Positions 49,205 through 54,147 of a stretch of DNA of 64,000 bases are shown here, in pieces (positions within the stretch are counted from its first letter, which is position 1; each line of letters opens with the position of its first letter). The translations under genes were made by a program, and so were the position numbers. The notes under the pieces were generated by a model. It was given only the letters and a program-made list of their open reading frames with translations. It did no database searches and was not told the DNA's origin. The stretch is taken from positions 1 through 64,000 of the forward strand of contig JAHJQE010000027.1 of assembly GCA_018819205.1 (NCBI GenBank), read 5' to 3'. Origin of the DNA: Gammaproteobacteria bacterium. Its GTDB lineage: Bacteria; Pseudomonadota; Gammaproteobacteria; Burkholderiales; Gallionellaceae.

Positions 49205-49630
49205 CTACTGGCCCAGTTTCACGCTGAGGACCCGCTCGACATAACCCTGGTCCCCCGGCGCCCCCCCGGCCGTGGCCGTCGAAGTGATGTCGTAGATCCA
49301 GATGGTGTTCGCACCTTCCACATGCGAGGCCGCTGCGCAATCCACTGTCACCGGGCTGAACGGTGCCAGCACACCGGCAACAGGAATTGCCGCGCCAACC
49401 CCGCAACCCGCCCATGCGACCGGTGAATTAGTCGGGCTTGCCGCCACATGGAAAGACGCCCATTCGATCCCGGCGCGTGCCGCCTGATAGGCTCGCGAAC
49501 CCATCAAGTCCATCGCTGCACTCTCGTGCTGGCTGGTGGAAAAGGTGACCATCGCCACGCCCAGGAAAGACAACACCACCAGCAGAAAGATGGCGCTGAC
49601 GATGCTGAAACCGCGTTGCAAGGCTCTCAT
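49205..49630 (-). CDS. mshP: MSHA biogenesis protein MshP
   Basis: The 141-aa protein has a class III-like N-terminus, MRALQRGFSIVSAIFLLVVLSFLGVAMVTFS, resembling PilX/MshP minor pilins that lack the usual glutamate at +5. The remainder holds HESAAMDLMGSRAYQAARAGIEWASF, typical of MshP and GspK-like proteins. It overlaps mshO by 4 bases. Confidence 0.88.
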   Translation of the reverse strand: MRALQRGFSIVSAIFLLVVLSFLGVAMVTFSTSQHESAAMDLMGSRAYQAARAGIEWASFHVAASPTNSPVAWAGCGVGAAIPVAGVLAPFSPVTVDCAAASHVEGANTIWIYDITSTATAGGAPGDQGYVERVLSVKLGQ

Positions 49631-50484
49631 GGTGCGTTGTCCACATGGATCTCGTTGTACAGGGTCACGCTCTCGCCACCGCGTGTCAATTTGAGGCGCA
49701 CCGACAGCAGGCCGAATCTTGCATAAACCGGAGCAAGGTTATAGTCCATGGTGCATTCTTCCACATTGTCGGCCAGGATCGCCGGCGTCCCGCCCGGCAC
49801 CACATTGAAGCCGTAATTCCAGTAGCGCCGCAACACGCCGGTGCCATTGCCGTTGGCATCCAAGCCCAGTGTCTCGCAGGCATAGGTAACGGCTTTTTGT
49901 GTCCCGTCGACCACATCGAAACGCTGCGTGGGCAGCCTGGCCGTGGTCTGGAATCCGACAGCATTGGTGATCACCACATTGGTCTGCACCCCTGCGCCAC
50001 CGGCATAGGCACGCAATACACCTGTTGCTGTTGTGTCATATGGCAGCGAGCCATCCGATTGCGTGCTGCCGACCACGATATAATCTCCCGCAGCAAAATT
50101 GACACCCGTACCGACGATATCGAAACTGCCATCCGGTCCACCGAAGGACAATACATCGCCGGGAAGTTCCGCACGATAACGCCCACCGTTCTTGGTCGGG
50201 ATGAACTCCACGCAGGGCGCAGTGCAGTTCGTCATGCGCACGCTGTTCGGCACGGCACTGCGCACGTCCCGTGCCATGCGGCGGAAGGCGGTGTCGGCGA
50301 TATCGGTCAGCTCGGCACGGCGGGCGCTGTCCACATAACCCTGCACCGGCGCCTTGATGAAGATTGCCACCATGCCGGCGATGATGCCGGTGATGACGAT
50401 CACGATGATCATCTCCACCAGGGTAAAGCCGCCCTGTCGCACTGAAGCCCGACCTGTGGTCATCTTTTGTAATCTGTTTTCCAT
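49627..50484 (-). CDS. mshO: MSHA minor prepilin MshO
   Basis: The 285-aa prepilin has the processing site RQGG before FTLVEMIIVIVITGIIAGMVAIF (around residue 20). The mature protein begins with the conserved helix VQGYVDSARRAELTDIADTAFRRMARDVR, characteristic of MshO. Its start shares one base with the mshD stop. It is a minor pilin that likely primes assembly together with MshC, MshD and MshP. Confidence 0.9.
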   Translation of the reverse strand: MENRLQKMTTGRASVRQGGFTLVEMIIVIVITGIIAGMVAIFIKAPVQGYVDSARRAELTDIADTAFRRMARDVRSAVPNSVRMTNCTAPCVEFIPTKNGGRYRAELPGDVLSFGGPDGSFDIVGTGVNFAAGDYIVVGSTQSDGSLPYDTTATGVLRAYAGGAGVQTNVVITNAVGFQTTARLPTQRFDVVDGTQKAVTYACETLGLDANGNGTGVLRRYWNYGFNVVPGGTPAILADNVEECTMDYNLAPVYARFGLLSVRLKLTRGGESVTLYNEIHVDNAP

Positions 50485-51137
50485 CAGTACGCCGTCCTGT
50501 AGCCGTCGATCGTGATGGCCGTACCTTGCGGGTCGGTGACCGTGACCGTGATGCGCACCGCATTGCCCGCCGCCACATCGTTCAGCGCTTCCGATGTCAG
50601 TGTCACCGTTGACGAATAGTTTTCCAGGCCGACGATGGCAGCCCCGGCCAGATCGGAGATACCCGCCATGTTGAAACCGTTATAGCAATCGACGATGTGA
50701 TAGTCGGTTGCACGATTGGCAGCGGTCACTGCGCTGGCAACCGGACACGCCGTGGTCACTCCATCGTTCTGGTCGATGAAATCCTGCAGTTCAACTTCTT
50801 CCAGCAACGACTCCGCCACCGCCAGCGCCTGCTTGTGCAAGAGCGGATCGGCACTGTGCGCGGTGGTCTGGTTCATCACCAGCAGGATGCCGGTAACGCC
50901 GATACTGACAATGACGATGAACATGATCAGCTCGATCAGGCTGATGCCGCGCTGCTTCACAGACAACTGGCTCGCAGGCATCTCACCTTTTTCAGTCCCC
51001 AGCAAGCCAAACAATTGCTGGATACGCGGCTCGGTACGTTTCAGTAGTTCCGGATTCTGCTCATACGCGGCCAGCAAGAAATCCCGACCGGCCTCGATCT
51101 CTTGCAGCAATTGGAGATTTTGTTCGGCAATATTCAT
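50484..51137 (-). CDS. mshD: MSHA minor prepilin MshD fused in frame to an upstream small protein
   Basis: The full frame is 217 aa. Residues 53-217 are a normal MshD: leader MPASQLSVKQRG, then ISLIELIMFIVIVSIGVTGILLVMNQTTAHSADPLLHKQALAVAESLLEEVELQDF. An internal ATG at 50981, preceded by AAGGTGAG, would start the 165-aa prepilin. Residues 1-52 (MNIAEQNLQLLQEIEAGRDF and on to LFGLLGTEKGE) are an amphipathic helical piece with no pilin character. Its ATG overlaps the nucleotidyltransferase stop (ATGA), so it looks like the downstream partner of that gene, joined to mshD without a stop. Confidence 0.85.
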   Translation of the reverse strand: MNIAEQNLQLLQEIEAGRDFLLAAYEQNPELLKRTEPRIQQLFGLLGTEKGEMPASQLSVKQRGISLIELIMFIVIVSIGVTGILLVMNQTTAHSADPLLHKQALAVAESLLEEVELQDFIDQNDGVTTACPVASAVTAANRATDYHIVDCYNGFNMAGISDLAGAAIVGLENYSSTVTLTSEALNDVAAGNAVRITVTVTDPQGTAITIDGYRTAY

Positions 51138-51622
51138 TGTTGCGACTGAATCTTTCTCAACTCTTCGATATCAAGCAAATCCTTGCTGCGGCCCGTGCCG
51201 GACTTCATTTCGATCAGGTGGGCTATGGACGCCACCGGCACTTCAATCTCCCCCACCTTCACCATCGATGCATCCTGACGCAATTGGGCAAACGGCACCA
51301 CTGGTTTCACCAGCACATCCAGCGTCAGCGCTCTGGCTTCACCGGTGCGCAGACTGAATGCCAGCATACCTTTTTCGCGATGCCATTGATCAATCAATTC
51401 GGGTCGGGCCAGCGTGTCCAGCGGTACAGGAATGCCCGGGCGTAGACCGGCGGATTTGGCGGCGGCAATGAATCGTTGCAGATTCGCCTCGTCCATCGCC
51501 AGCACCACATCGACATCCAAGGTTACCCGCTGATACCCTTGCAAGGCGACCGCCAACCCGCCCACCAACACAAAATCAACTTCCGATCTCGTCAGCAGTT
51601 TGAGCAAGTCGAACATCTTCAT
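51134..51622 (-). CDS. Nucleotidyltransferase-fold protein inserted in the MSHA operon
   Basis: It is 162 aa from the ATG at 51622; a longer frame to 51676 translates a repeat arm. The fold signature is FVLVGGLAVALQGYQRVTLDVDVVLA (GG and the D-V-D pair of the Pol-beta superfamily), then LDVLVKPVVPF and IASIAHLIEMK-like VASIAHLIEMKSGTGRSKDLLDIEEL. This resembles MNT/AbiEii-type nucleotidyltransferases found in toxin-antitoxin pairs. Its stop overlaps the start of the 52-residue piece fused to mshD. It has no known role in pili. Confidence 0.75.
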   Translation of the reverse strand: MKMFDLLKLLTRSEVDFVLVGGLAVALQGYQRVTLDVDVVLAMDEANLQRFIAAAKSAGLRPGIPVPLDTLARPELIDQWHREKGMLAFSLRTGEARALTLDVLVKPVVPFAQLRQDASMVKVGEIEVPVASIAHLIEMKSGTGRSKDLLDIEELRKIQSQQ

Positions 51623-51632
51623 GCCGAATATC

Positions 51633-51759
51633 CCGTCATTCCGGCGCAGGCCGGAATCCAGCCCATTAAATGACACTTGCGAAGCAAGACAAAACCATGG
51701 ACTTGTCCGCTTTGCGGTGATTTTGTATTGCTGGATTCCGGCCTGCGCCGGAATGACGG
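51633..51759. repeat. MITE-like element with 30-bp perfect inverted repeats
   Basis: Arms 51633-51662 and 51730-51759 are perfect reverse complements, built on CGTCATTCCGGCGCAGGCC, with 67 bases between. Repeats of this type are widely dispersed in proteobacteria. One arm ends 1 base from the mshC stop and the other 10 bases from the nucleotidyltransferase start. Confidence 0.85.
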
Positions 51760-51760
51760 C

Positions 51761-52174
51761 TTAGTGCACATAGCCCGTCTCGCCCTCGATGGTGATGATC
51801 GTGGTACCGACCGTGAATGAACCCGTTGCCGAGGTGCGCCTGCCCAGTGCATCGAACGTCACCGTCTGCGGCAAGGCTGGCGCGACAGCGACCGTATTCA
51901 CGATCACGCAATTCACATTCCCGCCTGCCAGCACAGTGCTGCAATCGGGATTTGCCGCTGCGGTCAGGTTCACATCCACAGAACGACGCTGCGCCACCGC
52001 AACCTTCTGGCCAAAACGCAATGCCGACGACACTTGATCAGCCGTAGCGCGCGCGCGAAAAGCGTCGTTATCCGCAAACCGTGGCAACGCAACCACCGCC
52101 AGGATGCCGACGATGATCATGATGGTGATCAGTTCGGTCAGCGTGAAGCCACATTGTCTATAGGTACGATGCAT
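51761..52174 (-). CDS. mshC: MSHA minor prepilin MshC
   Basis: The 137-aa prepilin starts at the ATG at 52174 with leader MHRTYRQCG before FTLTELITIMIIVGILAVVALPRF; the longer frame to 52261 is a read-through of a palindrome. MshC-like features are ADQVSSALRFGQKVAVAQRRSVDVNL and two cysteines (NPDCST, VNCVIV). There is no strong ribosome site, consistent with a low-level minor pilin after the terminator-like palindromes that follow mshA. Confidence 0.85.
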   Translation of the reverse strand: MHRTYRQCGFTLTELITIMIIVGILAVVALPRFADNDAFRARATADQVSSALRFGQKVAVAQRRSVDVNLTAAANPDCSTVLAGGNVNCVIVNTVAVAPALPQTVTFDALGRRTSATGSFTVGTTIITIEGETGYVH

Positions 52175-53520: not shown

Positions 53521-54147
53521 TCACTCCAGCCAATGATAAGGTTCAGTCGGCTCGAACAGGGCGCTGGCCAATTCCTTTTCCGATGGCCGCCCCACCGAGG
53601 GTTCATATCCCAGACGCACATGGAAACGAATCCACCTGTTGCCATCCTTGCCCGGGATGAAGTTGTCGCTCTGGTTCAACACGAAAATCAATTCGCGCGT
53701 CTTGAGATCGAACATCCAGTTGCCGGGTGCCACCGTGCGCGGCGTGGGATCATAATATTCCCCTTTGTAGTTTGTTGGCAATTTCTGCAACCAGGTAACA
53801 GGGTTATCTGTAGCAAGAATACTCAGCGTTTGTTCGTTGATCGCACCACGCGTCATCAACGCGCCATACCGCAACGTCAAGGCACTCTGAATCGCCCCTT
53901 CCACCTGCTGCATCGCAGCCTTTTCGGCTTGCTCCTGGTAGAGTGGGATGCGCACCATAAACAGCCCGGCCAGCACCACGATGATGATGATGATAACGAC
54001 GAACTCGATCAGGGTAAAACCTTTCGAGTGCTGAGTGCCGAGTACTGAGTGCTGAGTGCGGGGTGCCGGGGAACACGTGATACTCGCTGCCGCTCGGGGA
54101 CGGCATGTACTGCTCAGCACTCGGAACTCGGAACTCATTGCTTTCAT
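53521..54147 (-). CDS. mshB: MSHA prepilin MshB-like with repeat-expanded leader
   Basis: The 208-aa frame starts at the ATG at 54147, in an ATGA overlap with mshG. The processing site is SKG before FTLIEFVVIIIIIVVLAGLFMVRI. The leader is about 42 residues instead of 6-15, because a heptamer repeat element (54026-54138) lies inside the coding sequence: SSEFRVLSSTCRPRAAASIT is followed by RTQHSVLGTQHS. The mature part (LYQEQAEKAAMQQVEGAIQSALTLRYGAL, then WLQKLPTNYKGEYYD and GNWMFDLKTRELIFVLNQ) is MshB-like. Confidence 0.82.
   Translation of the reverse strand: MKAMSSEFRVLSSTCRPRAAASITCSPAPRTQHSVLGTQHSKGFTLIEFVVIIIIIVVLAGLFMVRIPLYQEQAEKAAMQQVEGAIQSALTLRYGALMTRGAINEQTLSILATDNPVTWLQKLPTNYKGEYYDPTPRTVAPGNWMFDLKTRELIFVLNQSDNFIPGKDGNRWIRFHVRLGYEPSVGRPSEKELASALFEPTEPYHWLE
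54026..54138. repeat. Heptamer repeat element inside the mshB leader
   Basis: The left block has five GAGTGCT-type heptamers (54026-54060) and the right block inverted copies (CAGCACT, CGGAACT twice; about 54113-54138), with a unique GC-rich centre. The frame stays open throughout. The second copy of the family is at 57651-57744. Confidence 0.8.

Follow-up and report, generated by a model that had tools for sequence, protein, structure and literature searches.

Insertion of a MenT1-like nucleotidyltransferase module into the mshD leader and in-frame fusion of its small partner to the MshD prepilin

Introduction

In the window (the whole 64,000-nucleotide stretch of DNA that was analysed), the msh operon lies on the minus strand and runs mshA, mshC, a nucleotidyltransferase (NTase) gene, a segment joined to mshD, mshO, mshP, and mshQ; it raises the question of what the segment is, how it came to be part of a prepilin, and what would become of it once the prepilin is processed. 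Prepilin leaders are usually regarded as short disposable tags. Here the leader is a conserved domain of another system, and one that would be expected to be released into the cytoplasm. An earlier note on this DNA was right about the coordinates (NTase 51622-51134; segment and MshD 51137-50484), about the ATGA overlap between the two genes, and about the single frame leading from the segment into MshD. That frame (51137-50484, minus strand) encodes 217 aa, with segment, linker, and MshD following one another without an intervening stop (Table 1).

Results

The NTase profile had a single sequence match in the PDB, MenT1 of M. tuberculosis (E 2.4e-7), and MenT1 (8an5) was also the top fold match (E 1.4e-7) of the NTase model, which was confident (pLDDT 90.5). 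In the alignment T39, D41, K137, and D152 of MenT1 correspond to T34, D36, K140, and D151 of the window NTase, the numbering of the PDB construct being read as one below that published for MenT1. Among 67 relatives T34, K140, and D151 never vary and D36 hardly does, so that the window protein has the DxD metal site (D36/D38), catalytic Lys (K140), and Asp (D151) of the NTase fold together with a Thr phosphoacceptor ahead of the DxD (T34, aligned with MenT1 T39). The DUF6036 Pfam model (PF19502) matched 66 of the 67 family members; the AbiEii model (PF08843) matched 38 of 67 (E<=0.001) and gave the window NTase 18.5 bits, the model cut-off being 22.5. The toxin-antitoxin (TA) flavour that the earlier note had perceived in this gene is thus supported by a MenT1-like profile and predicted fold, which make it a putative toxin gene. 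A search of plasmids and phages with the NTase returned zero matches, and dissemination of the module on such elements was rejected.

Scanning contigs of bacterial genomes with the NTase alignment yielded 80 loci, from Gallionellaceae, Rhodocyclaceae, Comamonadaceae, and others. A partner lay directly 3' of the NTase in all 80, across Betaproteobacteria, usually with an overlap of 4 or 8 nt, and in 63 it was a separate gene of 54-104 aa. The window segment was recognised through homology (E ~1e-22), by which it is the conserved partner protein of the NTase. Stand-alone homologues next to nucleotidyltransferases, which the earlier note had proposed to look for and which would have spoken against it if unrelated, were therefore found (the 63 separate genes) and were not of the unrelated kind. 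Helices are predicted at residues 3-27, 29-34, and 37-47; the 52-residue helical segment that had been described is accordingly a helical, conserved partner, but its conserved helical part is narrowed to ~46 residues, with the remainder as far as Gly64 forming a low-confidence linker in the structure prediction.

Partners occur in two forms, A and B, each paired with its own NTase clade; the forms can be aligned and share the core R-x-F...QNP-x-L. No model for the partner was found in Pfam or NCBIfam, and PHROGs gave no meaningful match, so a small NTase partner family is now defined for which neither Pfam nor NCBIfam was found to hold a model. RecA was rejected as a relative because its matches are summed weak repeats of ~5 bits each. 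MenA1 was absent among the partner's sequence matches up to E 10, and a Pfam search of the partner for the HEPN domain of HEPN-MNT (type VII) TA systems gave zero matches. No AbiEi winged-helix antitoxin gene stands beside the NTase, its neighbour being the partner, with a 46-residue core and no Pfam family. In a class-wide survey the partner occurred in just 2 of 369 genomes, and beyond a few families the module is thus rare. A third type of related NTase (C), which has a small downstream partner of its own (..RLRAFKALTPEQRLRWVEELANFLRLAK..), was seen at L015, L016, L018, L019, L020, and L022; it was not found in an msh operon.

Table 1. Positions of the features of the window locus and of the partner-B-MshP fusion
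Feature	Position	Strand	Remarks
mshC prepilin gene, upstream neighbour	51761..52174	-	C-term ..ETGYVH*
Native mshD ATG, stranded	51769..51771	-	8 nt 5' of mshC stop codon
Stranded mshD head, 50 codons (MCTKPSFRRRPESS..)	51619..51771	-	own TGA overlaps NTase ATG (ATGA)
REP-type inverted-repeat element	51633..51762	none	within stranded mshD head; 81 genome matches
MenT1/AbiEii-like NTase, 162 aa	51134..51622	-	T34, D36, D38, K140, D151 conserved
ATGA overlap	51134..51137	-	NTase stop / partner-MshD start
Partner (antitoxin-like) helical segment, 52 codons	50982..51137	-	first ~46 conserved
Internal in-frame ATG, possible second MshD start	50979..50981	-	AGGTGA (50988-50983) ahead
Predicted prepilin peptidase site G64/I65 (KQRG/ISLIEL)	50943..50948	-	Gly codon 50948-50946; sequence, PF07963, general rule PMC4471445
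Mature MshD minor pilin, 153 aa + stop	50484..50945	-	
mshO	49627..50484	-	begins at mshD stop
Partner-B-MshP fusion, G114	L267:1996-2649	+	NTase 1473-2012

To place the module within the operon, 96 mshD loci were read, 93 of one family, taken as the iron-oxidising Gallionellaceae on the strength of contigs that match named Sideroxydans, Gallionella, and Sideroxyarcus records, and three of other families. An mshD ATG lies 4-14 nt 5' of the mshC stop and reads into MshD in 58 of 61 partner-free loci. Among 34 partner-bearing loci with a readable mshC, 31 keep this native ATG but end at a stop or out of frame, and wherever an NTase is present and mshC is readable, the native mshD start is cut off. 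In the window the native ATG (51771-51769) is followed by a REP-type element, which has many copies in the genome, and then by a TGA overlapping the NTase start. Because the native ATG is stranded upstream, the module sits within the mshD leader and separates mshD from its own start; this anatomy and history of insertion and fusion is well supported by the sequences compared. The earlier placing of the cassette between mshC and mshD therefore holds for the position of the NTase, but the capture lies inside the mshD leader, the native start having been overlooked. We rejected the idea that the window mshD starts at the -11 ATG of its relatives: that codon overlaps mshC in the relatives and is stranded in the window, whose own -11 ATG is another codon.

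In 28 of the 35 Gallionellaceae mshD loci with a partner, the partner is in frame with MshD (form A, 16; form B, 12), and with 28 loci carrying it the fusion was rejected as a one-off of the window assembly; seven mshC/mshD loci keep the partner separate from MshD. In 11 of the 28 fusions the linker contains no ATG, GTG, or TTG, so that any MshD begun there with a usual start codon would have to include part of the segment. It is extremely improbable that the arrangement is an artefact of sequencing or assembly or a remnant that has decayed: the genomes are mostly metagenome assemblies and some copies have decayed, yet the arrangement recurs across several genera, in many genomes that were assembled independently, and the segment shows purifying selection. 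Most pairwise Ka/Ks values of the segment lie in the range 0.1-0.3, alike in fused and separate copies, and by this measure fused segments are under purifying selection.

Related fusions in the genomes surveyed are non-independent events. On the MshD tree partner presence changes 23 times, with 39 of 93 inner branches unresolved, and in the pair G002/G012 a segment Ks of 0.98 versus an MshD Ks of 0.16 makes recombination evident. Given the unresolved branches and recombination, only three independent fusions were counted as safe (A-MshD, B-MshD, and B-MshP). The last of these belongs to G114, where a second module lies between mshO and mshP and partner-B is fused in frame to the prepilin-like MshP, independently of the MshD fusions.

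Prepilins were the only fusion partners found (MshD 28, MshP 1), and no fusion was found among the 63 separate partner genes of the 80-locus scan. Of 48 partner copies in the family, about 40 are located in msh operons, and in Rhodocyclales this module is found at other joints of the operon (mshP/mshQ and mshO/mshP). This restriction to prepilins, the preference for msh operons, and the second joining, to MshP in G114, would all be in keeping with a fusion selected to tie toxin control to pilus assembly, such that blocked biogenesis would free the NTase. We nevertheless regard such functional coupling as unlikely: with the native mshD start cut off, rescue of mshD expression explains the fusion without regulation, seven mshC/mshD loci have a separate partner, and repeats in the leaders of other MshD proteins point to plain tolerance. 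The enrichment in msh operons, at several joints, could also suggest that the NTase is a pilus-related modifying enzyme rather than a toxin, with the segment serving as a docking tag on MshD. This we consider very unlikely, since the module also occurs after yebC or der, before trpF or sucA, between rluD and yfiH, and beside thiolase genes, its closest solved relative is a tRNA-modifying toxin, and unrelated toxin-antitoxin-like genes occupy the msh operon too.

The msh operons form a hot spot, with unrelated toxin-antitoxin-like genes among their inserts as well. In a Rhodocyclaceae MAG (L232:136-1097, plus strand), an AbiEii-type NTase and a 98-aa upstream companion lie at the mshC/mshD joint, the companion's ATG falling within the mshC end, the usual place of the mshD start. 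In G061 (L268:1659-1907, plus strand), an Unstab_antitox (addiction module) protein is encoded between mshO and mshP along with an orphan partner-B, and in G163 (L272:2554-3128, reverse complement of the locus), a small nucleotidyltransferase-domain protein and a 116-aa companion beside mshQ form a pair that resembles MNT/HEPN, the HEPN part being putative. An ORF6N-domain gene is inserted between partner and mshD at L121 (G031) and L054 (G030). Unusually long prepilin leaders, which appear to be built of dispersed repeats (WIPACAGMT, RIQDSGFRIQDSG), were seen in the window at 53521-54147 and in MshD of G127, G078, G133, G094, G139, and G086. Judging from these sequences, prepilin leaders seem able to take up inserted DNA.

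In three genomes (G024, G111, and G163) the segment is present in the MshD leader and the NTase is absent. The native ATG again reads through a relic of the segment into MshD in G111 and G163, and in G024 this is done by an ATG overlapping an extended mshC end. The earlier note had named the same MshD extension in genomes lacking the NTase as a finding that would tell against it; the extension exists, but it is relic-like, the NTase being gone and an mshC-end ATG reading through. In G178 (L101) the head of the NTase, the tail of the segment, and MshD have been brought together by an in-frame deletion, and at this locus, L112 (G063), and L052 (G011), an in-frame deletion or a frameshift has disrupted an NTase that is still joined to the segment-MshD frame. 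The NTase is missing or broken for 15 partner copies of the family, eight of which have no pilin fusion, and no A- or B-type NTase that is intact was found there without a partner. Such a 15-versus-none asymmetry would be expected if prior loss of the partner were harmful; it is an indirect, antitoxin-like pattern, which lends the possible antitoxin of the earlier note some support.

The fused MshD has the features of a class III signal peptide, namely Gly at -1, a hydrophobic stretch, and Glu at +5 (KQRG/ISLIELIMFIVIVSIG); its prepilin motif is matched by N_methyl (PF07963) with a score at the model cut-off, and a prepilin peptidase gene was found in the same genome. The leaders of characterised type IV pilins measure 6-26 residues (PMC4471445). 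The predicted leader would be 64 aa if translated from 51137, outside this range, and 12 aa if translated from 50981. The ribosome site at 51137 is weak (duplex energy -0.9 kcal/mol), which fits re-initiation at ATGA, and the ATG at 50981 has AGGTGA ahead of it at workable spacing (-8.2 kcal/mol). From these sites, both starts may be used; the internal ATG could supply extra MshD, and much of the MshD in the window strain may be made unfused. Fusion and an internal start at 50981 had been offered by the earlier note as alternatives, and both are possible, but they are not mutually exclusive, and the segment would be produced only in fused form. As it has no stop of its own, the segment, if translated, would be made fused to MshD, and a free segment would be possible only through cleavage.

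It is conceivable, though somewhat unlikely, that MshD in the window strain comes mainly from the ATG at 50981 and that the segment made by read-through is either a minor by-product or of use only when fused. The stronger duplex at AGGTGA and the resulting 12-residue leader, which is of the usual length in the genus, agree with this. Yet besides the 11 of 28 fused relatives whose linkers have no start codon, eight more have only weak ones, and a segment under purifying selection and lacking its own stop has a product that is necessarily fused.

Discussion

We consider it probable that a TA-like module was inserted in the mshD leader, that mshD was rescued by fusion, and that PilD-type cleavage frees a partner that restrains the NTase. 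A small mobile module consisting of a MenT1-like NTase followed by a helical partner of ~55-65 aa would have entered the leader-coding part of mshD, severing the gene from its start codon inside the mshC end, and what remained of mshD downstream would have been rescued by joining in frame to the module's last gene. Ribosomes that terminate at the end of the NTase gene would then restart at the overlapping ATG to make the 217-aa partner-linker-MshD protein, in which the membrane stretch of MshD should set the topology and leave the partner in the cytoplasm. Cutting by prepilin peptidase after Gly64 would produce mature MshD and a free 64-residue partner, and the latter would presumably bind and restrain the NTase. 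Such a fusion would be tolerated because prepilin leaders are removed anyway.

Homology, position in the leader, reading frame, conservation, and the pattern of loss were all read directly from the sequences. We infer the release of the partner by prepilin peptidase from the processing of class III signal peptides in general (PMC4471445, PMC10191384). A role in toxin control is hypothetical, and a simpler reading is that mshD was rescued and the fusion tolerated since leaders are cut off. The relics in G024, G111, and G163 show that the fusion itself does not require the toxin. It is doubtful that prepilin peptidase serves as the maturation protease of a TA system, with restraint of a MenT-like toxin depending on the state of the pilus machinery. 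The locus nonetheless provides a natural test case of whether a pilus protease can mature an antitoxin, and it suggests how mobile modules can settle in tightly overlapping operons without breaking them, by seizing a start codon and hiding in the part that is cut off.

We found no description, in the open literature searched, of a TA partner within a prepilin leader, nor did the name DUF6036 appear there. The DUF6036 NTases (PF19502), whose model nearly all members of the NTase family match, have no function recorded in Pfam, and no partner family is described for them. With AbiE (AbiEi/AbiEii) the likeness is a distant match of the NTase to AbiEii (PF08843), and the difference is the lack of an adjacent winged-helix AbiEi in the window. 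The prepilin part resembles MSHA MshD and class III signal peptides in its Gly at -1, Glu at +5, hydrophobic stretch, and place in the msh operon, but its leader of 64 aa, versus 6-26 aa, is made of a domain of another protein. Enterococcal sex pheromones derived from lipoprotein precursors (cAD1; PMC7074142) likewise illustrate a processed precursor part with a function of its own; however, they are short, exported, and of a different signal class, whereas the window product would stay cytoplasmic.

The closest likeness is to MenAT1 (Rv0078A/Rv0078B) of M. tuberculosis, which combines a MenT/AbiEii-type NTase with matching catalytic residues and, encoded by the adjoining gene, a helical partner of very small size whose N-terminal helix is long, the antitoxin in MenAT1. 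For the partners the likeness lies in build: their sequences are unrelated, the toxin comes first in the window, the reverse of the menAT1 order, the window NTase has 162 aa versus 196 aa for MenT1, and the window partner is fused to a prepilin. MenA1, the antitoxin of MenT1, has 68 aa with an unresolved C-terminal tail, and its long N-terminal helix alone inhibits MenT1 and induces MenT1 auto-phosphorylation (PMC10435456, PMC11375011).
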